Origin: Brachyspira hyodysenteriae ATCC 27164
Lineage (GTDB): Bacteria > Spirochaetota > Brachyspiria > Brachyspirales > Brachyspiraceae
Reading direction: 5' to 3'
Length of the DNA: 64,000 nt
NCBI RefSeq assembly: GCF_001676785.2
Contig: NZ_CP015910.2
Coordinates: forward strand, 496,001 to 560,000
Position 1 is the stretch's first letter; every line of letters starts with the position of its first letter. Made by a program: the position numbers and the translations under genes. Shown here in pieces: positions 1,468 to 50,142 of this stretch. The notes beneath the pieces were generated by a model. The model searched no databases. It was given only the letters and a program-made list of their open reading frames with translations, and had not been told where the DNA came from.

Positions 1468-1568
1468 AAAGCTTGGGCGGGAATGCATTTTCTGATTAAG
1501 CATAAAAATAATTGATATTATAATTTTTAATTAAGTAATGAAGAATAAAGGGCGGGGCATGTAATTAA
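1468..1568 (+). repeat. Partial copy A of six-box palindromic element
   Basis: Only the two outer boxes of one arm remain: CTTGGGCGGGAATGCAT near 1472 and AAAGGGCGGGGCATGTAAT near 1548, about 76 bases apart. Both match boxes 5 and 6 of the full copy at 5176-5505, in the same order, orientation and spacing. The intervening DNA is AT-rich. It lies between two plus-strand genes. Confidence 0.7.
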
Positions 1569-3124: not shown

Positions 3125-4369
3125 TTATTTGTTTATAGTACGAATATCTATTACATATCTGAATTTTACTTTTCCGTCTATAACTTTTCTATAAGCTTCT
3201 GATATAGTTTGAGCATCTGCTTTTATTATTTCTACAGTAGGGTAAATATTATTTTCTATAGAATAGTTAAGCATTTCCTGAGTTTCTTTTATGCCTCCTA
3301 TAAGTGAGCCGAATAATTTTTTACTGCCATGCTGTCCCACCATTGCTATAAGAGTGGGCATTTTGGATGTTCTAGGAAGTCCTAATATACACATAGTACC
3401 GCCTCTTTTAAGCATACGCATATACATATTAACATCATAATAAGCTGGAATTGTACTTATTATATAATTAAGAGTGTTATTAACATTTTTTAAATCTTCT
3501 GCATTATTAACATTAACATACTTTACAGCTCCCATATTTAAAGCGTCCTGTCTTTTATCTTCTGTTATATCAAATACAGTAACCTCAGCACCTAATTTTA
3601 CAGCATATTTTACAGCCATAGATCCAAGTCCTCCGAATCCTGCAATACCTATTTTATCGCCTTTTTTTACATTCATAACTTGTATAGGTGAATAAGTTGT
3701 AATACCTGCACAAAGAAGCGGAGCAACTTTATCTAGTTCCGCATTATCTGGTATAAGTATTGCAAAATCTTCAGATACTACTATATTATCAGAGTATCCT
3801 CCTTGAGTGATTTCATTATTATGGAATCTGTCTCTTGAACCGTAAGTATAAACTGCTCTATTTAAACAGTACTGTTCTAAATTATCTAAACAGCTTTCGC
3901 ATTGTCCGCAAGAGTTTACCATACAGCCCACACCTGCAAAATCTCCCACTTTGAATTTTGTTACTGCATTTCCAACCTGTACGACTCTGCCTGCTATTTC
4001 ATGTCCTACAACTAAAGGAGTATTGCTTGATTTTCCTTCAACAACATGTATATCGCTATGGCATATTCCAGCATAAAGTATTTCTATCAAAACATCATTG
4101 CTTCCTACAGCATGTCTTGTAAACTCATGATATTTAAAATCCATATTAGCTGAAACTGCTGCAAAGCCTCTAGTTTTTACTCTGCCGTTTGCATTAGTTT
4201 GTATATTGATAGGGGCTTTTTTCAATTCCTGATTATACATTGCGTTTGAAGAATTATTTTGATTATTAACTGTAGTATTATTTTGTGCAGTTGTCTGAGC
4301 ATTAGAAGAGTCATTACATGATACAATATATAATATTGATATAATAGTTATTAATATAGCTTTTTTCAT
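3125..4369 (-). CDS. Zinc-dependent alcohol dehydrogenase carrying a lipoprotein signal
   Basis: Medium-chain NAD(P)-dependent alcohol dehydrogenase, YahK/cinnamyl-alcohol type, 414 residues. Residues 1-18 (hydrophobic core, then YIVSC) are a lipobox signal peptide with Cys18, followed by an Asn/Gln/Thr-rich linker of about 45 residues. The enzyme domain then starts at RGFAAVSA. Catalytic zinc ligands are in GICHSD and VGHE; the structural zinc motif CGQCESCLDNLEQYC is intact; GFGGLG is the nucleotide-binding turn. AAGGAG precedes the ATG. An enzyme that needs NAD(P)H would be cofactor-starved outside the cytoplasm, so the location is puzzling. The family call is firm; export is inferred from the signal. 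Confidence 0.88.
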   Translation of the reverse strand: MKKAILITIISILYIVSCNDSSNAQTTAQNNTTVNNQNNSSNAMYNQELKKAPINIQTNANGRVKTRGFAAVSANMDFKYHEFTRHAVGSNDVLIEILYAGICHSDIHVVEGKSSNTPLVVGHEIAGRVVQVGNAVTKFKVGDFAGVGCMVNSCGQCESCLDNLEQYCLNRAVYTYGSRDRFHNNEITQGGYSDNIVVSEDFAILIPDNAELDKVAPLLCAGITTYSPIQVMNVKKGDKIGIAGFGGLGSMAVKYAVKLGAEVTVFDITEDKRQDALNMGAVKYVNVNNAEDLKNVNNTLNYIISTIPAYYDVNMYMRMLKRGGTMCILGLPRTSKMPTLIAMVGQHGSKKLFGSLIGGIKETQEMLNYSIENNIYPTVEIIKADAQTISEAYRKVIDGKVKFRYVIDIRTINK

Positions 4370-4402
4370 TTTATAATCTCCTTCATAAATTTATATAATT
4401 AT

Positions 4403-4433
4403 ATTATATCATTGAAGTAAACTCCAGAGTCAA
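4403..4433 (-). promoter_or_regulatory. Possible promoter of the alcohol dehydrogenase gene
   Basis: On the minus strand TTGACT (4433-4428) and TATAAT (4408-4403) are separated by 19 bases, longer than ideal. It sits just upstream of the start codon at 4369. Confidence 0.4.
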
Positions 4434-4465
4434 GAAATTTTTTTAAATTTATTCATATATTGAAT

Positions 4466-4620
4466 TTTCTTCTAAATCCCGCCCATTTTATTTTACTATT
4501 TTCTTTGTTATTATTATTCTATTATTATTTTTAGTTTTCACTATTAGTATTACGCCCTCTCTAGATTTTTTAGATTTGGAATTTCCCTACCGTATTTAGA
4601 ATGGTATTATGAATAATCAT
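4466..4620 (+). repeat. Partial copy B (left arm) of palindromic element
   Basis: Begins CTTCTAAATCCCGCCC and contains boxes 1 (CCCGCCC, 4478-4484), 2 (degenerate, near 4552) and 3 (degenerate, CTACCGTATTTAGAATGG, near 4588). It is nearly co-linear with the left arm of full copy C at 5176-5325, in the same orientation, so hicBA lies between two direct repeats. Confidence 0.75.
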
Positions 4621-4766
4621 TGAAATATTATATAAAAATTTTCTAATTATATACTACTAATAATAATGATGTTATAGAAAATATAAAAAAATTGAAGATA
4701 AATATATTTTATAATATATTGTTTTTTTTATTGATATTAAATATAATTATTACAGAGGTATCTATT

Positions 4767-4967
4767 ATGGTTTTTAAAGTTATTGTACATCAAGATGAGG
4801 ATGGTTTTTGGGCAGAAGTTCCATCTATAAAAGGGTGTTTTACTCAAGCTGATACTATGGAAGAATTAGAATTCAATATAAAAGAAGCTATTGAAGGATG
4901 TCTTTCAGTTGATATTGAAGAATATAATAAAGATAATATTGTAAAAACTATTGATGTAGTATTATGA
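4767..4967 (+). CDS. hicB: HicB-type antitoxin
   Basis: Antitoxin of a type II HicBA pair, 66 residues. FKVIVHQDEDGFWAEVPSIKGC is the HicB partial RNase-H fold signature, followed by the EELEFNIKEAIEG helix. It binds and masks HicA. It lacks the separate DNA-binding domain of longer HicB proteins, so autoregulation is not evident. The frame opens upstream at 4692, but that extension is hydrophobic and unlike the family; AGAGGT at 4754-4759 supports the ATG at 4767. Its stop overlaps the hicA start (ATGA), indicating translational coupling. Antitoxin-first order is the reverse of the commonest hicAB layout. Confidence 0.9.
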   Translation: MVFKVIVHQDEDGFWAEVPSIKGCFTQADTMEELEFNIKEAIEGCLSVDIEEYNKDNIVKTIDVVL

Positions 4968-5170
4968 AAACCATAAGTGGTAAAAAATTTTGTAAATTAT
5001 TAGAGAATCATGGTTGGGTTCTTGCTAGAATAAATGGAAGTCATTATATTTATGTAAAATCAGGAAGTGATTTTAGAATATCGATACCAGTACATAAAAA
5101 TGATGATTTAAAGATAGGGCTTTTGAAAAAATTATTAAAGATTACCAATATATCGGAAGATGAACTATAA
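4964..5170 (+). CDS. hicA: HicA mRNA-interferase toxin
   Basis: Translation-dependent mRNA interferase of 68 residues, the normal HicA size, with a double-stranded-RNA-binding fold. The signature GWVLARINGSHYIY contains the catalytic histidine (His27), followed by ISIPVHKNDDLKIGLLKKLLK, typical of the family. The toxin looks intact. It overlaps hicB by four bases. The palindromic element copy C starts only a few bases after its stop, and its left arm duplicates the sequence upstream of hicB. Confidence 0.92.
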   Translation: MKTISGKKFCKLLENHGWVLARINGSHYIYVKSGSDFRISIPVHKNDDLKIGLLKKLLKITNISEDEL

Positions 5171-5175
5171 TAACT

Positions 5176-5505
5176 TTCTTCTAAATCCCGCCCATTTTGT
5201 TTTATTGTTTTCTTTGTAATCATTATTCTATTATTTTTTTAGATTTCACTGTTGCTATAACGCCCGCCCTAGATTTGTTTAGATTTTGAATTTTCACACC
5301 GCACGCAGAATGGCATTATAAATATAAATTAGTTTTGAATATTAATTTTTATTATATATAAAATCTGACTAACCGTGCGTTGAATGCATTTTTTATTTAA
5401 TAATCGTTTGGGTGGGTGCTTTAATTTCTTATTTGACTGTAAAGATAATAAAAATTAGAATTTCAAAATAATGTTGTATAAACAAAAGGGCGGGGTGTGT
5501 AATAA
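5176..5505 (+). repeat. Full copy C of six-box palindromic element
   Basis: Six GC-rich boxes in AT-rich DNA: CCCGCCC (5187), GCCCGCCC (5262), ACCGCACGCAGAAT (5298), ACCGTGCGTTGAATGCAT (5372), TTGGGTGGGTG (5408) and GGGCGGGG (5488). Boxes 1/6, 2/5 and 3/4 are mutually inverted around a centre near 5340. It separates hicA from the leuS promoter. Confidence 0.85.
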
Positions 5506-5526
5506 AATTTAAAATAATATTATCAC

Positions 5527-5555
5527 TTGAAAAATATATGAATTTGCAATATAAT
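5527..5555 (+). promoter_or_regulatory. leuS promoter
   Basis: TTGAAA (5527-5532), a 17-base spacer and TATAAT (5550-5555) place transcription start near 5562, giving a leader of about 80 bases before leuS. The leader shows no T-box features. Confidence 0.7.
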
Positions 5556-5641
5556 TTTTGACATTAAAAATATGTAAACTAAATTTTAATATTTTAATAA
5601 AAATTAATAGTATCTATCAAACAAACTACGGAGTGTTAATC

Positions 5642-8203
5642 ATGGAATATAATTTTACTACCATTGAAAAGAAATGGCAGAAATTCTGGAAAGATAATCA
5701 GTCTTTCAAAACAGTATCTAAACCTACAGACAAAAAATACTATGTACTAGAAATGTTTCCATACCCATCTGGAAAAATGCATATGGGGCACGTTTCTAAT
5801 TATACTATAGCTGACTCTATAGCTAGATACTATAAACTGTTAGGATATGATATTTTACACCCAATGGGTTGGGACGCTTTTGGTATGCCTGCAGAAAATG
5901 CTGCTATAGAACATAAAACTCACCCTGCTGAATGGACTTTAAAAAATATTGCTAATATGAAAGATCAGTTAAACTTACTTGGATATTCTTATGATTGGGA
6001 TAGAGAAGTTACTACTTGTTTGCCTGATTATTATAAATGGGGACAATGGTTCATATTAAAAATGTATGAGAAAGGTCTTTTATATAGAAAAGGTGGAGAT
6101 GTTAACTGGTGCGATCATTGTAATACAGTACTTGCAAATGAACAGGTTACTCCTGAAGGTACTTGCTGGAGATGCGACGGAGAAGTTACTAAAAAGAAAC
6201 TTGAACAATGGTATATAAAAGTTACTGATTATGCAGAACAATTAGATGCAGATTTGAAATTATTAGAAGGTTATTGGCCTGATAATGTTATAGCTATGCA
6301 GAAAAACTGGATAGGAAGAAGTGTAGGTGCTTATATCAATTTCAATTTAGATGACGGTAAAGCTTTCCCTATATTTACAACTCGTCCAGACACTATTTAT
6401 GGTGTTACTTATATGGCTATAGCTTGGAACTATGATGGACTTTTAGATATGTGTACCACTGAACAGAAGAGTGCTGTAGAGGAGTTCATTAAAAAGTCTG
6501 CTAAAATAGACCAAAAAACAGATTATGAGAAAGAAGGTGTATTCACTGGAAGATATGTAGTTAATCCATTTAATGGCGAGAAAGCTCCTTTATATGCTGC
6601 TAATTTCGTTTTAGCTGAGTATGGTAGCGGTGCTGTAATGGCTGTTCCTGCTCATGACCAAAGGGACTTTGAATTTGCTAAAAAATACAATATTCCTGTA
6701 AAAGTTGTTATACAAAATGCTGATAATTCTTTAAAAGCTGAAAACATGACAGAGGCTTATACTGAAGACGGTACAGTTGTTAATTCAGATATTTTAAATG
6801 GACTTTCTTCAAGAGATGCTATAAAAAGAGCAATAGAGTATGCTACAGAAAAAGGCTTTGGAAAAGAGAAAGTTCAGTATAAACTTAGAGACTGGCTTAT
6901 ATCAAGACAAAGATATTGGGGCAATCCTTTACCATTTGTACATTGTGAGAAATGCGGTGTTGTTCCTGTACCTGAAAGCGAACTTCCTATAACACTTCCT
7001 ATGGATATAGAGTTTACAGTTGGTGATAACCCTCTTAAAAAATCAGAATCATTCGTTAATACGACTTGTCCTAAATGCGGCGGCAAGGCTAGAAGAGAAA
7101 CTGATACTATGGATACATTCACATGCAGTTCCTGGTATTATGCTAGATATACAGATGCTCATAACAATCAGATGCCTTTCGATCCTTCAGCTGCAAATGC
7201 TTGGCTTGGAGTTGATCAGTATATAGGCGGTATTGAACATGCTTGTATGCATCTTTTATATTCAAGATTCTGGTACAAGTTTATGAGAGATATAGGACTC
7301 GTTAAAGGTGATGAGCCTTTCAATAGACTTCTTACTCAAGGTATGGTTTTAGCAAATAGCTATGAATCAAGAGAGTTAAAGAAATTCTATACTCAGGAAC
7401 AAATGAACAATAAAGAGTATGAGAAAGATGGAATTAAAAAAGAAGACATTATAGTAAAAATGGAAAAGATGTCTAAATCAAAAGCTAATGGTATTGATCC
7501 TGCTGAGATTATAGAACTTTTTGGTGCTGATGCTGTTAGAATATTCGTTATGTTTGTTGCTCCTCCTGAAAAAGATAAAGAATGGTCTGATGAAGGTGTT
7601 AAAGGTTCTTCAAGATTCTTAAATAGAATTTGGAACTTATTCCTTAAATACAAAGATGAAGAAGCATTCAAAAACGGCAAATCATTTGATTATAATAACC
7701 TTTCAAAAGAAGGACAAAAATTATTCAGAAAATACAATAAAACTATTAAGAAAGTTACAATAGATATTAAAGACAGATTCCATTTCAATACTGCAATTGC
7801 TGCTTTGATGGAGCTTTTGAATGATATGTCTGTAATAAAATTAGCTAATAATGATGATTATGCTATGTTTAAAGAAGTTATAAGAGGATATTTAATACTT
7901 CTTAATCCTATAGCTCCTCATATGACAGAAGAACTTTATCAGATATTAAACTTCGGAAAAATGATACTCGAAGAAAGATGGGTTGAACATGATGAACAGT
8001 ATTGCAAAGATGATACATTCGAGTTAGTATTCCAAGTTAATGGTAAGATAAGAGACAGAATAGAAGCTGATGTTAATATAAGCGAAGATGATGCAAAAGC
8101 TCAGGCATTAGCAAGCGAAAAAGTTAAAGCATTCACAGACGGTAAAAACATTGTTAAAGTTGTTTATGTTAAAGGAAAACTTGTAAATATAGTTGTAAAA
8201 TAA
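5642..8203 (+). CDS. leuS: Leucyl-tRNA synthetase
   Basis: Charges tRNA-Leu with leucine; cytoplasmic class Ia synthetase of 853 residues, normal bacterial length. PYPSGKMHMGHVSN contains the HIGH-type signature and MEKMSKSKANGIDP the KMSKS loop. The editing domain holds FTTRPDTIYGVTY. Zinc-type Cys pairs are visible (CDHC/CWRC and CEKC/CPKC), and the C-terminus ends in the usual small domain. The frame extends to a TTG at 5558, but that TTG lies in the transcription-start region; ACGGAG at 5628-5633 and the family-typical MEYNFTTIEKKWQKFW support ATG 5642. It has its own promoter and terminator and is flanked by inverted copies (C and D) of the palindromic element. Confidence 0.98.
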   Translation: MEYNFTTIEKKWQKFWKDNQSFKTVSKPTDKKYYVLEMFPYPSGKMHMGHVSNYTIADSIARYYKLLGYDILHPMGWDAFGMPAENAAIEHKTHPAEWTLKNIANMKDQLNLLGYSYDWDREVTTCLPDYYKWGQWFILKMYEKGLLYRKGGDVNWCDHCNTVLANEQVTPEGTCWRCDGEVTKKKLEQWYIKVTDYAEQLDADLKLLEGYWPDNVIAMQKNWIGRSVGAYINFNLDDGKAFPIFTTRPDTIYGVTYMAIAWNYDGLLDMCTTEQKSAVEEFIKKSAKIDQKTDYEKEGVFTGRYVVNPFNGEKAPLYAANFVLAEYGSGAVMAVPAHDQRDFEFAKKYNIPVKVVIQNADNSLKAENMTEAYTEDGTVVNSDILNGLSSRDAIKRAIEYATEKGFGKEKVQYKLRDWLISRQRYWGNPLPFVHCEKCGVVPVPESELPITLPMDIEFTVGDNPLKKSESFVNTTCPKCGGKARRETDTMDTFTCSSWYYARYTDAHNNQMPFDPSAANAWLGVDQYIGGIEHACMHLLYSRFWYKFMRDIGLVKGDEPFNRLLTQGMVLANSYESRELKKFYTQEQMNNKEYEKDGIKKEDIIVKMEKMSKSKANGIDPAEIIELFGADAVRIFVMFVAPPEKDKEWSDEGVKGSSRFLNRIWNLFLKYKDEEAFKNGKSFDYNNLSKEGQKLFRKYNKTIKKVTIDIKDRFHFNTAIAALMELLNDMSVIKLANNDDYAMFKEVIRGYLILLNPIAPHMTEELYQILNFGKMILEERWVEHDEQYCKDDTFELVFQVNGKIRDRIEADVNISEDDAKAQALASEKVKAFTDGKNIVKVVYVKGKLVNIVVK

Positions 8204-8231
8204 AACATTATTACTTAAAAAATAAAAAGAT

Positions 8232-8269
8232 TAAAGAGTATGGATTAAAAAAGTCCGTACTCTTTTTTA
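8232..8269 (+). terminator. leuS terminator
   Basis: AAAGAGTA...GGA pairs with TCC...TACTCTTT and is followed by a run of T. It begins about 30 bases after the leuS stop. Confidence 0.85.
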
Positions 8270-8276
8270 TTTTAAT

Positions 8277-8484
8277 TACATACCCCGCCCTTTATTTTTT
8301 ATTGTTTAATTTAGGATTTTAATTTTTATTATCTTTATAGCTTTATCATAAATTATAGACCCCACCCAAGTTTTTATTAGATTTAGAATGCATTCAACGC
8401 ACGGTGAACTAAATTTTTGTGTATAATGAAATTGAATTGATAATTAAGTTTATATTTTTATCTAAATTCTGCGTGCGGTAAGTT
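8277..8484 (-). repeat. Truncated copy D of palindromic element, inverted relative to C
   Basis: Contains CATACCCCGCCC (8281), ACCCCACCCAAG (8359), GAATGCATTCAACGCACGG (8386) and ATTCTGCGTGCGG (8466). These are four of the six boxes at normal spacing, read as the reverse complement of copy C. The last two boxes are missing, and the element stops just before the 3' end of the broken DUF3226 gene (stop codon 8501-8503). Confidence 0.8.
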
Positions 8485-8500
8485 GATGAAAATATAAGAA

Positions 8501-9082
8501 TTAATTTCCATTAACAAAATGTTTATCAAAAAAAATTTTCAATGGTATTAAATAATCACTATCTATATTCCAAATTTCATTATTGGTATAATCTCTTTTA
8601 TCTTCCTTAATTTCTTTTTTATTATCTACTTTTATAGATTCTAAATATGCATATACTTTTGATTTATTTACTGGAATATTTGTGTCATTTAATGCTTCTA
8701 TACATTTTGTATAATTATCAAAACAATTCATTATTTCTTTTCTTACAGCAATATTAATTAGTATGTTTTCTAAATTACCATTATCTTTATTATTTGGAAA
8801 TAAAAATATATCTTCATCATGTAAATTATAATTTGTTAAATTGTTTTTTATATTATCAATAGAATTTTGTATATCGTTATCAGCATCAAATATTACAATT
8901 AATTTATGATTATCATCAATATATTTTTTTATATGAATTATTTTCTTTTCATTAAAACTGTTACCATTATTTATTTCTATCTTAATATTTTAATTAAAAT
9001 TATTATAATTATGTTTTATATAATCTTCTAAAAATTTTTTATCAGCTTTACCTTTAACTAATATTAAATATTTTTGATTCAT
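8501..9082 (-). pseudogene. DUF3226 (TOPRIM-like) protein, interrupted by one stop codon
   Basis: Reading from the ATG at 9082 gives 193 codons with a single in-frame TAA at codon 31 (8992-8990); all other codons remain open, so this is a nonsense mutation or a base-call error and not a frameshift. Before the stop, YLILVKGKADKKFLEDY corresponds to the family's VEGxxDxxF start, with the usual catalytic Glu replaced by Lys. After it, LIVIFDADND is the TOPRIM-type DxD motif, and FLFPNNKDNGNLENIL matches the PxN...GxLE segment of DUF3226. Only two bases separate it from the ATPase stop, so the pair was co-expressed. Possibly an inactivated nuclease partner; no internal start would restore the domain. 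Confidence 0.75.
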
Positions 9083-16462: not shown

Positions 16463-16790
16463 TCATTCCCAACCCTTTATTACTTATGACTTTATTTTTA
16501 TTTTTTATTTTCATTATCTTTACAGTTTAATTAGAAATTTTAACGCCCGCCCAAGCTTTGTTTAAATTTAAAATATATATAACGCACGGTGAGCAAAATT
16601 TTTAATATAATGAAATTTGAATTAAAAATAAAGCTATATTTTTTAGCTTTATTCTGCGTGCGGTGAATATACTATAATTTTTTAAAAAATTGGGTGGGCA
16701 GCAAAAATTACTGTAAAATGCGAAGAAGAAAAATAATATAGAAATACCAGATATGATAGAAAGGCTATAGGGTGGGCATATGTAATTAAG
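16463..16790 (-). repeat. Full copy E of palindromic element, inverted relative to C
   Basis: Boxes in order: ATTCCCAACCCTTTA (16465, degenerate), ACGCCCGCCCAAG (16543), AACGCACGGTGAGC (16581), ATTCTGCGTGCGGTGAA (16651), TTGGGTGGGCAGC (16690), AGGGTGGGCATATGTAATTA (16769). Spacings are about 77, 37, 72, 37 and 78 bases, the same as in copies C and F. Confidence 0.85.
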
Positions 16791-28421: not shown

Positions 28422-28755
28422 TTATACACCCCGCCCTTTATATTTTATTGTTTTATTTATAAATTTTTATTTTGATTATATTTATTGTGTCTTTAGAAAT
28501 TATAGCCCCCCCCCAAGTGCTTATTAAATTTAAAAAAATTGCTCCACGCACGGTTAGCTGAATTTTATATATGATTAAAATTAGAATTATTAATTAAGCT
28601 ATATTCATAATTTTACTCTGCGTGCGTTAAAGTAATTATAAATTTAAATAAATCTAGGGTGGGTGTTATAATAACAGTAAAATCTAATAAAGAAAATAAT
28701 ATAATAATAATAAATGAGAATTGTAAACTAAAATGGGAGGGGAGTTATAATAAAT
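28422..28755 (-). repeat. Full copy F of palindromic element, inverted relative to C
   Basis: Boxes: ACACCCCGCCC (28426), GCCCCCCCCCAAG (28504), CCACGCACGGTTAGC (28544), ACTCTGCGTGCGTTAA (28615), TAGGGTGGGTGTTAT (28655), AATGGGAGGGGAGTTATAA (28731). Spacings are about 79, 39, 74, 37 and 78. It fills the space between abiF and the convergent phosphoglucomutase gene. Confidence 0.85.
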
Positions 28756-30778: not shown

Positions 30779-31450
30779 TTATTTTGGCATAGGGATACCA
30801 TAATGTATATTGATCCAATCAGCCCCTAAAAATTTTTTCCAGCTGCCGTCTCCAGGGTCTTTTGCTACATTTGGAAGGTATAAATCAGAAGGTTTTACAG
30901 TTCCGGAAAATGGCGTGCCTGCTATTGCATTCGGAGAAGTTCCTAAATATTCTATATTTTTTAAAGAATTGCAGTTTTCAAAACTTGTATTATCAATAAT
31001 TAATAAGAGAGAAGGTAATTGAACACTCACTAAAGATGTACAGCCTTTAAAAAAATTTGCTATTATTTTTTGAGATGATGCAAAATAAACTGTTGTTACA
31101 AATAAAGAATTTTCTAATGTGTAAATATAATTACTTTCCATAACAGCTTTAGATAAATCTAATACAATATTAGTTTCATTTTTAAGAGCATTTTTTATAT
31201 TATCAAAAATTTTAGAATTTGTCCCAATATATCCTTCAACAGCAATAATATTTTTTCCTGTGATATCTCTATTTTTTTGTAAAGCATCTTTAATCTCTTC
31301 TTCTGTGGCATTAGCATCAATTATATAAAGATTTTTGTTTGAATTATTATCATAAATTCCATCACTAAATCCATCAAATGGAGATATTATTTTATATTTG
31401 CATGAGCACATTATTATCATTAATATTAATAATACAACTATATTTTTCAT
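30779..31450 (-). CDS. Short BspA-like leucine-rich-repeat lipoprotein (copy 1)
   Basis: 223 residues. Signal with lipobox MCSC. Conserved N-terminal module LYIIDANATEEEIKDALQKN, then two or three LRR_5/BspA-like repeats (FFKGCTSLVSVQLPSL, SFENCNSLKNIEYLGTS), then the C-terminal tail DLYLPNVAKDPGDGSWKKFLG...IHYGIPMPK. It is the close paralogue of the gene at 32598, sharing both ends. It follows the long LRR gene (31468) by 17 bases. Likely surface-exposed; ligand unknown. Confidence 0.8.
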   Translation of the reverse strand: MKNIVVLLILMIIMCSCKYKIISPFDGFSDGIYDNNSNKNLYIIDANATEEEIKDALQKNRDITGKNIIAVEGYIGTNSKIFDNIKNALKNETNIVLDLSKAVMESNYIYTLENSLFVTTVYFASSQKIIANFFKGCTSLVSVQLPSLLLIIDNTSFENCNSLKNIEYLGTSPNAIAGTPFSGTVKPSDLYLPNVAKDPGDGSWKKFLGADWINIHYGIPMPK

Positions 31451-31467
31451 TTATATATTTTCCTTTT

Positions 31468-32475
31468 TTAATTAGGCATAGATTTGCCAAAAATGATGCT
31501 GCCTTTATTTTTCCAGTCATATCCCAAGAAATTATTCCAGCTTCCGTCATCTGATGCTACATTTGGTAGATATAAATTTTTTGCGGTTAATTGAGCATCA
31601 AATATATCTATTCCTACGGATGTTATATCTGAAGATTTATTTCCTGCATATTCTATATTTTTTAAAGCAACGCATCCTGAAAAAACTCTATCTCCCATTC
31701 CTGTTATACTAGCATTTAATCTTATAGATTCCAATGATTTACAGTTATAGAATACAGCATCTCCAATTATTTTTGTTTTTGATGGGATATTAATTGTTTT
31801 TAATGATGCACAGTCATAGAATGCCTTTGAATTTATACCGTCTATTATAGTTTCAGGAAGCATAATAGTAATTAAACTAGCACAGTCATTAAATATTCCA
31901 TTATTTATTATTGTCATTTTTGTTTTTGAAATGTCTGCCAAATATAAAGATCTGCAGCTTTTGAATGCCTCTTGTGAAATTTCTGTTATAGAAGCAGGAA
32001 AATTAATTGTTTTTAAAACTAAACAACCTGAAAATGCACTTACACCTATAGTTGTTATAGTATTAGGTAATTTGACATGAATTAAATTTTTATTATCAGT
32101 AAATGAATTATCTGCTAATTTTGTCATATCTGTTCTGCTTAAATCAAGAGAAACACCTTTAAGATATTTATCTTTTTTAATGATTGTATTGATGGTGCTT
32201 ATTATATTATTGTTATCTATATTGTCTTTAGTGTCTTTTAAAAAGATTATATAGCAATTATATTCGTTAAAATATTCCTGCATTATTGATTCTATTTTAT
32301 CTTCTTTATAATCTGATTTTATAAAATATTTTGAGTCTACATTTTCCGGTATATTAGAAACAGGGATATTACTGCTGCCATATGATTCATCTAAAGAAAA
32401 TGGATCTGTAACTTTATAATTATTGCATGATATTAATAGTATAAGTAATAATAATAATTTTAACTTTATGAACAT
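31468..32475 (-). CDS. Long BspA-like leucine-rich-repeat lipoprotein (copy 1)
   Basis: 335 residues with a lipoprotein-like signal (LLILLISC). The N-terminal module VDSKYFIKSDYKEDKIESIMQEYF precedes about six LRR_5 repeats of the form SAFSGCLVLKTINFPASIT, and the C-terminus carries the shared DLxLPNV...SW.NFLG...MP tail. Closest relative is the gene at 33306. BspA-type repeats in oral and gut bacteria bind host proteins or other bacteria. First gene of the second long-short pair in transcription order. Confidence 0.82.
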   Translation of the reverse strand: MFIKLKLLLLLILLISCNNYKVTDPFSLDESYGSSNIPVSNIPENVDSKYFIKSDYKEDKIESIMQEYFNEYNCYIIFLKDTKDNIDNNNIISTINTIIKKDKYLKGVSLDLSRTDMTKLADNSFTDNKNLIHVKLPNTITTIGVSAFSGCLVLKTINFPASITEISQEAFKSCRSLYLADISKTKMTIINNGIFNDCASLITIMLPETIIDGINSKAFYDCASLKTINIPSKTKIIGDAVFYNCKSLESIRLNASITGMGDRVFSGCVALKNIEYAGNKSSDITSVGIDIFDAQLTAKNLYLPNVASDDGSWNNFLGYDWKNKGSIIFGKSMPN

Positions 32476-32597
32476 CCTTATAATTTTTTCCTCATATTTT
32501 ATCTTTTAATAAACTTCAAATTAATTTTAAGAAGTTTAAATAAGTTAGAGAATTATATATAAAAAAAAATATATAATCAAGTATAAATATGCATTAA

Positions 32598-33299
32598 TTA
32601 TTTAGGCATAGAAGCGTTGTAATGTATTTTGTTCCATTTAGAACCTAAGAAATTATCCCAGCTTTGATCACCAGGATCTGTTTTTACATTTGGAAGATAT
32701 AAGTCAGCAGGCTGCAGACCCGTAAAAGGTGTACCATTTATTATGTTTGGAGAAGTCCCTAAATACTCTACATTTTTTAATGAAGTACATCCTGAAAAAC
32801 TTGTTGGATCTATTGTATCTAAAGTTTTTTGCAATTGTATACTAGTTACAGAAGTACATCCCTTCAAAAAATTACCTACTAATGTTCTAGATGATGGAAG
32901 AAGAACTATTGTTAATTCTGTAGAGTTTTCTAAAGTTCCTTTAAAATTACTTTCTAATGTGGCCATTGATAGGTCTAACTCTATATCTGTTTTACCGCTT
33001 ATTACTTTTTTTATATTATCAAATATTGAAGAAGTTTGATTTATATATCCTTCTACTATTATTAAATTTTTACCGGTTAATTGTTTATTTTTTTCAAGTG
33101 AATTTCTTACTTCCTCTTCACTAGAGTTTGCTCCTATAGTGTACAAATTCTGATTATTATTATTTCCGTTATTCCCATTATTATTATACATATTATTTCC
33201 ATCATCAATATCAATAATAGGGGATACTATTTTATATTTACAAGATATAATTATTAAAGAAATAAGTATAAATAATGCAGTTATCTTTTTCATTGTCAA
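32598..33299 (-). CDS. Short BspA-like leucine-rich-repeat lipoprotein (copy 2)
   Basis: 233 residues. Lipobox signal (IIISC). An Asn-rich linker (NNMYNNNGNNGNNNNQN) is longer than in copy 1. The LYTIGANSSEEEVRNSLEKN module, two or three repeats (FLKGCTSVTSIQLQKT) and tail DLYLPNVKTDPGDQSWDNFLG follow copy 1 closely. It begins 6 bases after the long gene at 33306. Downstream bases (ATATAATCAAGT, then ATATG...TTAATTATTT) repeat those after copy 1, showing that the duplication included the flanks. Confidence 0.8.
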   Translation of the reverse strand: MTMKKITALFILISLIIISCKYKIVSPIIDIDDGNNMYNNNGNNGNNNNQNLYTIGANSSEEEVRNSLEKNKQLTGKNLIIVEGYINQTSSIFDNIKKVISGKTDIELDLSMATLESNFKGTLENSTELTIVLLPSSRTLVGNFLKGCTSVTSIQLQKTLDTIDPTSFSGCTSLKNVEYLGTSPNIINGTPFTGLQPADLYLPNVKTDPGDQSWDNFLGSKWNKIHYNASMPK

Positions 33300-33305
33300 T
33301 TTCCT

Positions 33306-34376
33306 TTATCTAGGCATAGATTTTCCATAATGAATAGTTGTCCAAGCAACACCTAAAAAATTATCCCAGCTTCCATTTTTAGGATCTTCTGCCACATTAG
33401 GAAGGTATAAATCGGTTACAGGTGAACCTCTGAATGTATCATTTTCTTTAAGTATTTTTACGGGATCTGTATCAAGATATTCAACATTTTTAAGCATTTT
33501 ACAATCAGAAAAAACCTTACCTTCTGAAGGATTTAAAAGGCTTGTTATACTATTAGGTAAGCTTATAGCTGTTAATGATGAGCAAAGATTAAAAGCATTA
33601 TCATTTATGGTAGTTAATCCTTGATTTAATTTTATACTTTTTAATGATTTACAGCTGTAAAATGCTGCTGTGCCTATAGTTTGTAAAGTTGATGGAAAAT
33701 TAATTGATTCTAATGATGTACAGTAATTGAATGCTCCATCTGCTATTGAAGTTAATCCTTCAGGAAGTATTACTTCTCTTAAAGTAACACAATTTTTAAA
33801 TGCATTATTAGCTATAGTTTTTACTTTTGATGTTATATTAATAATTTCTAAAGACATACAGTCTTGAAATGCAGCAGATTGTATATCGGTTATAGAGCTT
33901 ACTAGATTTATATATTTTAATCTTTCGCATGATTGAAATGCTGATGAATTTATAGTTTTTAATGAGTTAGGAAGCTTAACTTCTATTAAATTTTTATTTG
34001 CATTAAATGCACTTTGTGCTATTTCTGTTATATCAGTTCTGCTTAAATCAACAGCAGCTCCGTTATGTAAATAAGCAGGTTTATTAACTACTTTATTTAT
34101 TGTTTCTATTGTTTTATTTTTATCTATATTATCTTTAGTATCATTTAAAAATATTATATATTCTCCAAAATTCTGGAAATATTTATTCATTATTTCTTCT
34201 ATTTGCTGTTCAGTGTAATCTGCTTTGATGAAATATTGAGCATCTACATATTCAGGTATAATGCTTATGTTATTATTACTATTATTTTGAATGGAGAATG
34301 GATCAGTAACTCTATAATTAGAGCAGGAAATAGCTAATAAATATATAATGAAAATATATTTAATATTTCTAATCAT
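33306..34376 (-). CDS. Long BspA-like leucine-rich-repeat lipoprotein (copy 2)
   Basis: 356 residues; signal with ISC lipobox. VDAQYFIKADYTEQQIEEIMNKYF is the same N-terminal module as copy 1. About seven LRR_5 repeats follow (AFKNCVTLREVILPEGLTSIADGAF), then the shared tail (DLYLPNVAEDPKNGSWDNFLG). It has one repeat more than copy 1. First gene of the first long-short pair in transcription order; 83 bases downstream of the barrel gene at 34460. Confidence 0.84.
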   Translation of the reverse strand: MIRNIKYIFIIYLLAISCSNYRVTDPFSIQNNSNNNISIIPEYVDAQYFIKADYTEQQIEEIMNKYFQNFGEYIIFLNDTKDNIDKNKTIETINKVVNKPAYLHNGAAVDLSRTDITEIAQSAFNANKNLIEVKLPNSLKTINSSAFQSCERLKYINLVSSITDIQSAAFQDCMSLEIINITSKVKTIANNAFKNCVTLREVILPEGLTSIADGAFNYCTSLESINFPSTLQTIGTAAFYSCKSLKSIKLNQGLTTINDNAFNLCSSLTAISLPNSITSLLNPSEGKVFSDCKMLKNVEYLDTDPVKILKENDTFRGSPVTDLYLPNVAEDPKNGSWDNFLGVAWTTIHYGKSMPR

Positions 34377-34459
34377 AAATAACCTCTATCTAAGTATTAT
34401 ATTCATTTTTTTACAGTATTCAATTTTTATCATAAAAAAATTAATACTTGTAAAATTAT

Positions 34460-35107
34460 TTATAATTTTGGTACTTTGAATCTCAAACCAAATAATACTT
34501 CATGATATCCGTCCGCTTTAGTATCCAATAAATATCTGTATCCCAAATCTATAGACATATATGGTAATACATTATAAGCCATTCCTCCGCTGAATCCGAA
34601 AACTATCGTACTTTTTGATAGTCTCTTTTGTATTTTATTATTATCAGTATATGTACCTACTAAATAGTCATTTATTCTAGTTCCTATGGATATTCCTAAA
34701 TATATCGTAAAAGGAGGGTATTTATCCAATAAGGTTTGTTTGTAGCTTTCATCTGTTAATTCTTCTTTGATTAAAAAGAAATTAATATCAAAATATATAG
34801 AACCTAATAGGGTATGCATTTTTATATCATTGGTCATACCTATTACACTTCTTCCCATATATTCAAATTCAAATCTTACAGGAGAAGATTTATTTATAGT
34901 TGGTATGCTGTATCCTAAAGAAAATCCTCCGCCTAGATAATTAAAATATCCTAGATCACTATCTGTTTTTTTATAGGCATAATTTCCATCATGTGAAAAA
35001 ATAAATTTAGGAGTAATATATAAACCTTCAGGAATAAATGAAAATAGTTTTTGATTATTAAAAAATAAAAACATAATCATAAATATAATTAAATAATATC
35101 TTTTCAT
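34460..35107 (-). CDS. Outer-membrane beta-barrel protein, paralogue of 35119
   Basis: 215 residues with a Sec signal peptide (about 1-24). Strand-like alternation and Gly/aromatic motifs (YLGGGFSLGYSIP, RFEFEYMGRS, MSIDLGYRYLLD, VLFGLRFKVPKL) resemble small OmpA/opacity-type barrels. Aligns by eye with the 35119 product across the whole length. It starts 11 bases after that gene, so co-transcription is likely. Confidence 0.72.
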   Translation of the reverse strand: MKRYYLIIFMIMFLFFNNQKLFSFIPEGLYITPKFIFSHDGNYAYKKTDSDLGYFNYLGGGFSLGYSIPTINKSSPVRFEFEYMGRSVIGMTNDIKMHTLLGSIYFDINFFLIKEELTDESYKQTLLDKYPPFTIYLGISIGTRINDYLVGTYTDNNKIQKRLSKSTIVFGFSGGMAYNVLPYMSIDLGYRYLLDTKADGYHEVLFGLRFKVPKL

Positions 35108-35118
35108 CTAATCCGCTC

Positions 35119-35787
35119 CTAAAAATTAAACCTTAAAGATGCCACTATATCATGATTAGACTGAAGTTCTGTAGTGAAAGTTACTCTATAGCTTAAATCT
35201 AAACTAATTAACGGAGTTATATGAAACGCAAAACCGCCTCCAAGTCCGTAAAGAAATTGCACCATATTATAGTAATAACTATAATTAAAAATACCATTCT
35301 GTTCAAAAATATTACTAGTTATATATGTATTTAGTCCTGCCCCCATCAAGAATCCGGCATAAACAGACATTAAAGGTCTTTTCCCATTATTAATTCTAGT
35401 TCTAATTGAATCAGGATTATCATAATTTACATACCAAAAATAGAAATCATAATAAGCACCAAATAAAAAACTATGTGAATACATTGTTTTTACTCTTGGT
35501 ATATAAACATTTTCTGAAATAGGATTTCTATATAGATATTCAAATTCAAGTCTTACAGTGCTGTATTTATGAAATATGTCGAAATTGTATCCTATTGAAA
35601 TACCTCCTCCTACATATAAGTTTTGTATATTTTTTTTATCATCATTTGGTTTTCTTATTCCTGAATCTTCTATCTCCAACAAAAATTTAGGCGATAAATA
35701 AACTCCTATATCATATGCTATAAGAGTATTAGTTAGGCAAACTATAAATAAACAGCCAATTGAAAACTTTTTTATTATAAACTTCAT
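35119..35787 (-). CDS. Outer-membrane beta-barrel protein, paralogue of 34460
   Basis: 222 residues; signal peptide about 1-24. YVGGGISIGYNFD, RLEFEYLYRN, YGLGGGFAFHITPLISLDLSYR and the final SLRFNF are shared in order with the 34460 product, indicating an old tandem duplication. Function and ligand unknown; predicted to sit in the outer membrane. Confidence 0.72.
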   Translation of the reverse strand: MKFIIKKFSIGCLFIVCLTNTLIAYDIGVYLSPKFLLEIEDSGIRKPNDDKKNIQNLYVGGGISIGYNFDIFHKYSTVRLEFEYLYRNPISENVYIPRVKTMYSHSFLFGAYYDFYFWYVNYDNPDSIRTRINNGKRPLMSVYAGFLMGAGLNTYITSNIFEQNGIFNYSYYYNMVQFLYGLGGGFAFHITPLISLDLSYRVTFTTELQSNHDIVASLRFNF

Positions 35788-35807
35788 AAAATAATTTCCT
35801 TAAAATA

Positions 35808-36617
35808 TCAAAAAAGTATTCCAATAGAAAATCTTGGAAGAGGTACTAGTCTTATCAAGCTTTTATATGAAATACCTATATCAATTATTGATATATCTAA
35901 AAAAGGACGAATACCGCTATTAACTCCTAATCCTCTCGATAAATCTATTCTAAATCCCATTTCTCCGGATATATAAAAATCCATTATATTGCTATTTCTA
36001 TTTGTATATGATGATGAATCTTTTTGATATTCTCTGCCATGTGTTATAAACAATGTTGTTCCAACTTTAGGCATTAAGAAAAATCCTGATGCTCTGTCTT
36101 TCTTATTAAAATAAAATCTTAAACCTGCAGAAAGTCCGAGTCCATATACATTTCCATTGTATGTGGCTTTTGAATTATCATAATATGTTTTCATATTATA
36201 AAAGCCGGCATCTACATTAACATCCATTTTTTCAGTTAGTCTGTATGTATATGTAAGTCCCAATCCGAAAGTACCTTGCAGCTTTAGATTGCTTGGATCA
36301 TTACTAGGTAAAGCAAGATTAAAAACTGACGGAGCTATAAGCATATAAAAAATTGTAGGTCCGAAATCAACTCCTATAGAATGTCTATGAGAGCTTAGAG
36401 CATCATTTATATTTGCTATACTATTATTATTTGCTGTACTGTTATTATAGTTATTATTATTTGCTGTACTGTTATTATAGTTATTATTATTTGCTGTACT
36501 GTCATTATAATTATTATTATTTGCATTTTTATTTATAATATTGTTTGAAGGTTCTTGTGCTAGAATATTATTAGCAAGTATAAATAAAAATAAAATTATT
36601 AATATATTCTTTTTCAT
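35808..36617 (-). CDS. Outer-membrane protein with tandem Asn-rich repeats
   Basis: 269 residues. A signal peptide ends near ILAQ, then a linker made of three 10-residue units NNNNYNxSTA precedes the barrel (SIGVDFGPTIF ... PRFSIGILF). The linker is encoded by 30-base direct repeats (36421-36524), so its length can vary by slippage without breaking the frame. The C-terminal barrel shares PFLDISIIDIG-type strands with the 36631 product. Likely surface-related; function unknown. Confidence 0.72.
   Translation of the reverse strand: MKKNILIILFLFILANNILAQEPSNNIINKNANNNNYNDSTANNNNYNNSTANNNNYNNSTANNNSIANINDALSSHRHSIGVDFGPTIFYMLIAPSVFNLALPSNDPSNLKLQGTFGLGLTYTYRLTEKMDVNVDAGFYNMKTYYDNSKATYNGNVYGLGLSAGLRFYFNKKDRASGFFLMPKVGTTLFITHGREYQKDSSSYTNRNSNIMDFYISGEMGFRIDLSRGLGVNSGIRPFLDISIIDIGISYKSLIRLVPLPRFSIGILF
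36421..36524 (-). repeat. 30-base tandem repeat inside a surface-protein gene
   Basis: Three consecutive 30-base units, each containing TTTGCTGTACTGTTATTATA (the last with a C in GTCATTAT), then a partial fourth. Because 30 is a multiple of three, copy-number change alters linker length without a frameshift. Confidence 0.88.
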
Positions 36618-48324: not shown

Positions 48325-50142
48325 TTAACTTTTAGGAAGAAGTTTAACAGGATCTATTGATCTTCCCTGATAAGAAATCTTAAAATATAGTTCGCTTCTA
48401 TCTATCATACCAGTATCGCCAATGTCTCCTATATAATCTCCTTTCTTTACTATATCTCCAAGTTTAACATTTATCTTAGAAAGATGAGCATAAGAAGTAT
48501 TATATCCGTTTTTATGTTTAAGTATTATAACAGTACCGAATCCTCTTATATTATCAGCATATTCTACGATTCCGTCATCAGAAGCTACAACTTTGTCTCC
48601 TACATCTCCTAATATATTCACACCTCTGTTTGCAAGTTTATCAGAAGCTACTCCATATCCTGAAATTATTATTCCTTTATAAGGCCATATAAAAGAGCTG
48701 TCAGGTAATATAGAATCATCATTAAAAGAATAAGGCACCATTTTTGCTGTTTTTACTTTTAGATTGGCGCCGACATATAATTTATATTCATTAGCATTTT
48801 TTATATTATTAAGCTGCATTAAATCTCTTAAATCCATTTTATGTTTTTTTGCTATTGAGTATAAACTATCTCCGCTTTGAACTTTATAATTTGATATTAC
48901 TAAAGTAGTTGTTTTTTTAGGGTTAGCATATACTTTAAGATTATCTCCAACTTTCAAAATATATTTGTCATTTATATTATTTATGGAGTATAATTCTACT
49001 AGATCCATTCCTCTTGCTAGAGCTATTCCGCTTAAAGTATCACCGCTTTTTACTTTATAATTTTCCAAAGTTCTGTATGTTGTTGATGTTGAAGAACTTG
49101 TTATATTAATATTATCATATATTTTTAAAGTATCTCCTACTTTAAGCACATAATTATTTTTTAGATTATTTAATTGAAGAAGATCTTTCAAAGACATAGA
49201 ATTTCTTAATGCTATCTCTCCAAGAGTATCTCCGTTTTTTACTCTATATGTTTTTATAGTTTTGCTTTGTGTATTTGAGGCATTTTCTCTTGCATATATT
49301 TTTAATTTTTCGCCTGTTCTTAATTTGTATTTTAAAGGATCATCTATATTGTTAATTCTTAGAAAATCATTTACGCTAATATCATTTTGAAAAGCTATTC
49401 CGTATAAGGTATCGCCGCTTTTTACAGTATAGTATTCTATTTCTTTTCCTGTATCTTTTTCATTATTTGTGTTTAAATTATTTTCTTTTTTAGATGATTT
49501 AACATACATAGTTTTACCTACATATAGTTTATATTTATCAGGATCATCTATATTATTAATCTTTAAAAATTCGCTTGCTGTCATACCATGAGAGAAAGCT
49601 ATTCCGTATAAAGTATCACCGCTTTGCACTTTATAAGTATCATAATTTTCTGTATTATCACTATTATTTATATTATTTGAAGAAGCATTATTTTCTTTTT
49701 GATTATTTGCTACTTTAAGAGTTTGTCCTACTCTAAGATTATATTTATTGGCATCTTTAATATTATTTATAGCTAGAAATTCATTAGCAGTCATTCCATG
49801 GGCAAATGCTATACCAAATAAAGTATCCCCGTTTTTTACTTTATAATCTTTGTATGAGTTTCCTTCTTCTCCTTTCAAGCCGAAAACTTTATTATCAGAG
49901 TCATATACAAGAGTATAACCTTTATCTTTTACTTTTAAAGTTTCTCCTACTCTAAGATTATATTTATCAGGATCTTTTATATTATTAACTTTTAAAAATT
50001 CATTTGCACTCATATCATGAGCGAAAGCTATTCCAAATAAAGTATCGCCGTTTTTTACTTTATAATCTATATAATCAGCCGCAAAATTAAGCGAGGCAAA
50101 AGTGCATCCTATAATGGAAGCATATTTAAAAATATTTTTCAT
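48325..50142 (-). CDS. Seven-LysM protein with degenerate M23 domain
   Basis: 605 residues, exported (signal peptide about 1-22). Seven LysM domains, each starting YKVKxGDTL, occupy residues about 26-455 and bind peptidoglycan. The C-terminal M23 domain (from FIWPYKGIIISGYG) lacks most zinc ligands: HxGIDI reads NRGVNI and the final HLHFEI reads ELYFKI; only YAHLS is kept. It therefore probably activates an amidase, like NlpD/EnvC, rather than cutting wall itself. LysM units 1-4 are more alike than 5-7. Confidence 0.92.
   Translation of the reverse strand: MKNIFKYASIIGCTFASLNFAADYIDYKVKNGDTLFGIAFAHDMSANEFLKVNNIKDPDKYNLRVGETLKVKDKGYTLVYDSDNKVFGLKGEEGNSYKDYKVKNGDTLFGIAFAHGMTANEFLAINNIKDANKYNLRVGQTLKVANNQKENNASSNNINNSDNTENYDTYKVQSGDTLYGIAFSHGMTASEFLKINNIDDPDKYKLYVGKTMYVKSSKKENNLNTNNEKDTGKEIEYYTVKSGDTLYGIAFQNDISVNDFLRINNIDDPLKYKLRTGEKLKIYARENASNTQSKTIKTYRVKNGDTLGEIALRNSMSLKDLLQLNNLKNNYVLKVGDTLKIYDNINITSSSTSTTYRTLENYKVKSGDTLSGIALARGMDLVELYSINNINDKYILKVGDNLKVYANPKKTTTLVISNYKVQSGDSLYSIAKKHKMDLRDLMQLNNIKNANEYKLYVGANLKVKTAKMVPYSFNDDSILPDSSFIWPYKGIIISGYGVASDKLANRGVNILGDVGDKVVASDDGIVEYADNIRGFGTVIILKHKNGYNTSYAHLSKINVKLGDIVKKGDYIGDIGDTGMIDRSELYFKISYQGRSIDPVKLLPKS

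Follow-up and report, generated by a model that had tools for sequence, protein, structure and literature searches.

Boxes and coordinates of the element in the window

What are the six short boxes upstream of leuS, and what holds them at set distances in DNA that otherwise drifts? The window analyzed here (the whole stretch of 64,000 nucleotides, positions 496,001-560,000 of contig 1 of a 3.07 Mb genome) contains six copies of the element, A to F. For easy description, CGCACG is named h, CGTGCG is named H, GGGYGGG is named G, and CCCRCCC is named C. Copy C (5187..5494, + strand) is a complete six-box C-C-h-H-G-G form located upstream of leuS, with same-place copies in other species. Its boxes start at 5187, 5263, 5300, 5374, 5410, and 5488 (steps of 76, 37, 74, 36, and 78), and its h-H core (5300..5379, +) is formed by CGCACG and CGTGCG, 74 apart. 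Copy E (16469..16776, +) also carries six boxes, starting at 16469, 16546, 16583, 16657, 16692, and 16770, of which box 1 is degenerate (CCAACCC). Copy F (28430..28741, +), with convergent ORFs on both sides, has box starts at 28430, 28506, 28547, 28621, 28657, and 28735; its box 2 is a C run and its box 6 reads GGGAGGG.

Three further copies are partial. Copy A (1475..1556, +), directly past the stop of the upstream ORF, retains only boxes 5 and 6, the outer arm, as two GGGCGGG boxes 75 apart. Copy B (4478..4620, +) is a decayed left half with an intact box 1 and broken boxes 2 and 3, and the 69 bp around its box 1 (4463-4531) share 90% identity with 5172-5240 of copy C. Copy D (8284..8477, +), downstream of leuS and again with same-place copies in other species, consists of boxes 1-4 (C-C-h-H). 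The four copies of the window that retain the inner pair (C, D, E, and F) all space it at 74. The six-box family of the initial annotation was thus recovered with the boxes and spacings of C, E, and F and the partial copies A, B, and D, with the correction that box 1 of E, boxes 2 and 6 of F, and boxes 2 and 3 of B are imperfect. The element was said to be intergenic, and an overlap with an ORF of at least 70 aa was seen for only 3 of 84 clusters; on this evidence and on spacings that vary by 1-2 bp, a coding element was rejected. No intrinsic terminator was found in copy C within 5100-5650.

Copy number and distribution across genomes

A search of the genome and of the genus had been proposed as a check on the family. 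The core pattern CGCACG-N64..72-CGTGCG gave 95 matches in the genome of the window and none in the reversed control, which rules out a chance origin of the box pair, and the core is present in 24 of 26 Brachyspira genomes. These 26, including the window's own, belong to a phylum sample of 198 genomes, in which three come from other genera of the family. The 24 positive genomes hold 2 to 144 core matches each, with a control of zero, while the core pattern has no match in the genus genomes G034 and G147 or in any of the three family members from outside the genus. Only two matches are found in G009. By leuS, G034, G147, and G009 are the most distant genomes of the genus (78-85% identity, versus at least 92% in the other full-length matches). 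The genus therefore does not need the element, two genomes lacking it and one having two copies, which counts against a general function of the kind proposed below.

Outside the family, core matches in most genomes are near the control, and a few genomes exceed it, for example G185 (14 versus 4), G159 (7 versus 1), and G042 (5 versus 0); the matches of G039, the only outside-family ones inspected, are G+C-rich and unlike the element. When species genomes were scanned for exact matches to the arm pattern, all of the 80 matches listed (of at least 120) were from Brachyspira. The arm pattern has no exact match in viral contigs, and copy C has no blastn match in plasmids or phages at the settings used, and carriage by mobile elements was rejected on these results. 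Two contigs of uncultured Brachyspira (L178 and L171) each show four element matches within about 1 kb, several of them at steps of about 340 bases.

Modular forms and spacing

The start-to-start spacings are tightly held across the genome. The mean h-H spacing is 73.8 (sd 1.0, n=92), its range being limited by the search pattern itself, and the means for the other steps are 36.3 for H-G (sd 0.8, n=59), 77.5 for G-G (sd 1.4, n=61), 77.5 for C-C (sd 0.9, n=54), and 42.3 for the G-C joint between units (sd 1.1, n=22), with rows containing off-consensus boxes excluded, as were outliers (24 and 113 for H-G; 28 and 114-116 for C-h; 63 and 102-122 for G-C). Clusters take the forms C-C-h-H-G-G (19), h-H-G-G (12), C-C-h-H (8), and h-H-G-G-C-C-h-H (8), and many others are partial or longer. 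The six-box unit of about 330 bp, which had been taken for the element itself, is therefore a real form and only one of several modular ones; it is one view of a lattice that repeats about every 345 bases.

The arms are nearly all-or-none. When both halves of 92 copies were scored (184 in all), 109 had a perfect inner arm box (six G), 59 retained 0-2 of the 6, and 16 retained 3-5; in the scoring control, a shifted offset never reached 5 or 6. Of the 92 copies, 29 carry two complete arms, 53 have one complete arm and lack the other, and the remaining 10 fit neither description. From these counts, the minimal functional unit seems to be the core plus at least one arm. Within an arm box the six Gs are fixed, and the center base is almost always C or T. 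Both orientations of the element occur, as had been noted for the window, and the lack of a replichore bias rules out replichore-directed (KOPS-like) sites.

Position of the copies on the chromosome

The copies are centered on the origin. Their circular mean lies 8.9 kb from coordinate 0 (R 0.64, Rayleigh p about 3e-17, 92 of 95 copies used), and the clustering persists when copies are collapsed to 82 loci (p about 2e-14). Within 600 kb of the origin lie 77 of the 93 placed copies, a density of 64 per Mb versus 8.7 per Mb elsewhere. We put the origin at coordinate 0 because the cumulative GC skew (22.8% sample) has its minimum there, with a maximum near 1.4 Mb, and because the parS-like sites described below are located there. 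The main dnaA match (1.17 Mb) and parB (2.23 Mb) are both far from that pair of sites. For Brachyspira, oriC and dnaA are reported as not associated, in agreement with dnaA at 1.17 Mb (PMC3532143); an earlier placement of the origin was the cluster containing dnaA (PMC2650404).

In G118, where the origin was taken from the parS pair at 1.676 Mb since the 6-kb skew samples were too noisy, at least 100 of 117 copies lie at 0.61-2.02 Mb; the other 17 at most could be located elsewhere, and some matches to the arm pattern are indeed found outside this range. The reversed control of the arm pattern is uninformative because the pattern is nearly identical when read backwards. In G093, with parS at 14.7 kb, at least 38 of 129 copies are in the first 0.43 Mb, among the 84 matches listed, which extend up to 2.99 Mb.

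The supply of gaps differs little along the chromosome. Gaps of at least 100 bases number 3.92 per 10 kb in origin-near samples and 3.75 in far ones, and convergent pairs 1.05 and 1.20. Convergent gaps of at least 100 bases are about twice as frequent near the origin (0.65 versus 0.34 per 10 kb), which counts against a specific origin preference, although this excess is partly self-made because the elements sit in such gaps and lengthen them. With that caveat, gap frequency was rejected as the cause, the 7-fold gradient being larger than any gap difference. The origin region is also reported to vary between species (PMC3532143), and this variability could concentrate tolerated repeats there.

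To our knowledge, only a few families of sites are described that label a single region of a bacterial chromosome (those of Noc, SlmA, MatP, and ParB). Nucleoid-occlusion sites number about 70 for Noc in Bacillus subtilis (NBS) and 24-52 for SlmA in Escherichia coli (SBS), are dispersed, and are under-represented near the terminus (PMC4726725). The element likewise provides dozens of dispersed sites that are scarce near the terminus. The best explanation, quite possible if short of probable, is that the elements act in cis as DNA sites that label the origin half of the chromosome in Brachyspira, are read by a putative protein, and work like Noc or SlmA sites.

Box and spacer conservation across species

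Loci were fetched via flanking genes rather than via the pattern from the 26 genomes of the genus. At the site upstream of leuS, identity over all ten rows is 0.890 in the boxes, 0.744 in the spacers, and 0.501 in spacer G/C columns. In seven species, a set that leaves out G171 and G113 (left half replaced) and G078 (Ns), the values are 0.976, 0.835, and 0.636, and 33 of 36 box columns are invariant versus 12 of 49 spacer G/C columns (p 2.4e-10 by a Fisher test that takes the columns to be independent). The site downstream of leuS shows 0.962 in boxes versus 0.719 in spacers (11 rows, some partial), site F 0.961 versus 0.701 (10 rows, with an arm-box center base identity of 0.444), and site E 0.989 versus 0.894 (5 of 6 rows, the inverted G058 copy being left out). 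The G058 copy at site F also looks inverted, and the G078 copy counted at F is, by coordinates, the same physical copy as the one downstream of leuS.

Copies at the same site are clearly more alike than copies at different sites (about 0.78-0.81) upstream of leuS (0.861) and at E (0.907), and only slightly so at F (0.819) and downstream of leuS (0.823). The comparisons at these last two places may not be strict orthology, which weakens the case for function at the origin. Copy B, which is truncated, lost boxes 2 and 3, while the intact copy C retains both, a contrast to be expected if only working elements depend on their boxes.

At the loci compared between species, the boxes are kept by selection. 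That spacers diverge while boxes persist had been noted from the copies of the window, and it is borne out between species at all four sites; selection on binding sites, one of the explanations then offered, gains support from the same constraint. Tight spacing, free spacer sequence, and conserved boxes together suggest protein contacts in a set helical phase. In the proposed mechanism, a putative DNA-binding protein, probably a dimer or higher oligomer, would recognize the CGCACG/CGTGCG core, contact GGGYGGG on one or both arms, and wrap or bridge about 200-430 bp at each site. If the analogy with Noc and SlmA holds, the complexes would load origin-proximal DNA and not the terminus, and may link the position or segregation of the chromosome to another event of the cell cycle, either compaction or positioning of the origin region or the timing of division.

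Folding of the element

The mutually inverted boxes might instead pair (1/6, 2/5, and 3/4) in a structured RNA or a cruciform. Natural copies are more stable than dinucleotide shuffles (mean z about -4.7 sense and about -4.4 antisense), as expected of any inverted-repeat arrangement. When the halves of different copies were exchanged, however, natives were less stable than chimeras on both strands, with means of -74.0 versus -81.9 kcal/mol on one strand and -67.3 versus -76.3 on the other, and on each strand only 4 of 22 natives exceeded their own chimera mean in stability. This comparison used 22 of the 29 full copies, seven being excluded for lack of orientation, and any mis-oriented copies could inflate the chimera excess. 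At the joint of box 6 and box 1, the center is non-Watson-Crick in 20 of 22 cases, 13 of which could still pair as G-U on one strand; for boxes 2 and 5, none of 29 copies combines C with C at the centers. The halves of a copy tend to differ in type, so that unlike halves are joined. No match was found in Rfam 15, either for the whole window at the gathering threshold or for 4400-8800 at E up to 1. Half-swap folding without compensatory pairing, mostly non-Watson-Crick joints, and the lack of an Rfam match led us to reject the structured RNA that had been listed among the possibilities, and we regard this explanation, in either form, as very improbable.

The arm boxes could alternatively act through their G tracts, since two GGGYGGG boxes on one strand supply four G3 tracts that might form a long-loop or inter-element G-quadruplex. 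The six fixed Gs around a free center base, almost always C or T and with an identity of 0.444 at F, agree with this, as do the uninterrupted GGG runs that the parS-linked variant shows in G118, G093, and G123. A loop of 70 nt between tract pairs is unfavorable, though, and quadruplexes leave the h-H core and the tight spacings of 36 and 77 unexplained; this is quite improbable.

parS-like sites at the origin

The ParB site parS is a TGTTTCACGTGAAACA-like 16-mer. The exact parS-type pattern had no match in the loci collected at that stage, and with one mismatch, two parS-like sites were identified at 3,037,832 and 3,038,035 of 3,041,447 (G000 C1), 203 bases apart. Allowing two mismatches added two further sites (3,020,448 and 980,537). 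The reversed control was zero. The element itself is not parS: those sites lie apart from it and flank one compact variant.

Five of the seven element-bearing genomes read (G000, G118, G093, G123, and G065) have an h-H core flanked by two parS-like sites, and four of these also carry C- or G-rich boxes nearby; G065 is without an arm-box match there, and its parS-like pair includes a site with two mismatches. No exact h-H core was found between the parS-like sites of G113 and G132, and G034, which lacks the element, has parS-like sites only, with no core between. The parS-linked variant has a different, compact geometry. Because it is probably one inherited event, the core between parS sites is suggestive of a functional link, short of proof.

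A ParB search of the 26 genomes gave one chromosomal match over the cut-off in each, element-bearing or not, and a second, sub-threshold match in three. A ParB paralogue as reader of the sites was rejected, and the single ParB, present in the element-less genomes as well, does not explain the distribution of the element and on this evidence is probably not the reader. This search of the 26 genomes yielded no reader protein, which also counts against sites that mark the origin.

More tentatively, Brachyspira may possess a chromosome-organization system of its own, with about 100 composite sites of 200-430 bp in an origin-centered domain around parS, an origin parS locus built around a compact site, and a putative reader that arose or was recruited within the genus.

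Comparison with known site and repeat families

The matS sites, which mark the terminus, and parS, with one or a few sites, are short single palindromes. The element resembles matS/MatP and parS/ParB as a chromosome-domain site, with one variant between parS-like sites, and differs from both in being no short single palindrome. NBS have a 14-bp palindromic consensus, while a site of the element comprises 200-430 bp of spaced boxes, is intergenic, and is origin-centered; unlike the sites of Noc and SlmA, the element has no Noc- or SlmA-like protein tied to it, and it does not track the single ParB.

Among repeats, REP units are short stable hairpins. With BIME/REP of Escherichia coli, as generally described, the element shares its high copy number, a mosaic of inverted modules, 3' intergenic location, and a preference for convergent genes; on the other hand, its boxes are 36-78 bp apart, pairing is not kept by half-swap folding, and it is origin-centered. 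STAR elements of Staphylococcus are likewise intergenic, stable at their loci, and variable in copy number between species, and they consist of direct repeats with spacers, unlike the inverted lattice found here (PMC3532100). The element had been called apparently undescribed; no description was found in the open-licence papers examined, PMC3532143, PMC2650404, and PMC9712426 among them, which is weak evidence of novelty.

If the elements do mark the origin, they would offer a sequence handle on chromosome organization and segregation in a spirochaete with dnaA far from the origin, and could serve as bait for their binding protein.

Gene context and age of the element

Flanking ORFs on both sides were available for 84 clusters and are convergent at 38, tandem at 37, and divergent at 9, compared with 22, 119, and 25 of 166 background ORF pairs, which were taken with a simple ORF caller from the window (itself holding copies) and 20 sampled stretches. 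The element favors convergent and avoids divergent gene pairs, and this placement fits an element without a promoter role. Its presence at a given place varies by species (6 of 23 loci for E, 10 of 25 for F), a further point against sites that mark the origin.

The main rival of the origin-marking sites is an old, inactive mosaic interspersed repeat, BIME- or MITE-like, that spread before most species split and is tolerated in 3' intergenic gaps, its concentration near the origin arising because that region most often takes up and reshuffles genes. The preference for convergent gaps, the uneven presence among species, and the mosaic forms all agree with such a repeat. Over 6,328 pairs of 113 halves, identity reaches a maximum of 0.914 with a median of 0.775; 74 of the 113 halves have a dispersed partner at 0.85 or above, as expected of a family that once spread, while only 2 have one at 0.90 or above. 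The spread is thus old rather than recent, and a recent transposition or MITE burst, as the annotation had considered, is rejected, since dispersed copies are not near-identical. The scarcity of close partners also counts against a repeat, as may the lack of a clear target-site duplication by eye in the copies inspected (flanks of 8 h-H-G-G-C-C-h-H and 19 C-C-h-H-G-G copies). No clean insertion can be read at E, because filled and empty sites also differ in neighboring sequence. A dead repeat would moreover leave unexplained why, at one and the same locus, several species share invariant boxes between drifting spacers, and the 7-fold origin gradient exceeds any difference in gaps. We consider an old repeat somewhat unlikely; even so, it would be a genus-wide part of Brachyspira intergenic DNA, located where neighboring genes differ between species.

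Neighboring sequence changes at the edges of the element, for example at E and at leuS. Between half-copy B and copy C, the window holds at 4692-5170 a HicA-like ORF and an upstream ORF, which we take to be a hicAB-type pair. In G065, the gene-start sequence of the 3125-4369 gene directly abuts the leuS element, and the pair therefore looks inserted at an element. Such edge changes fit a recombination-prone region or exchange sites alike, and they agree with an old repeat as well as with boxes bound by a recombinase, where elements would be exchange points for gene cassettes. Recombination sites would also account for the 345-bp tandem units and for the RelE-like, HicA-like, or Mrr-like accessory proteins (presumed names) in 3 of 10 intervals between neighboring copies. 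The other seven intervals hold proteins that we presume to be ordinary or unassigned, flagellin- and PstS-like ones among them, and we take the boxes of integron attC not to be recognizable in the element; exchange sites are thus clearly unlikely.

Several minor features were also observed. In L078 (G065, about 4,340-4,820), the downstream leuS element is broken near its H box by G+C-richer unrelated sequence, and the G-arm boxes follow at about 400 bases from h. At 30779-36617 of the window, a series of minus-strand ORFs, several with common repeated segments (repeat families D5, D6, D11, and D13), apparently encodes paralogous repeat proteins, and a 605-aa ORF at 48325-50142 contains seven internal repeats about 170-220 bases apart (repeat families D1 and D2).
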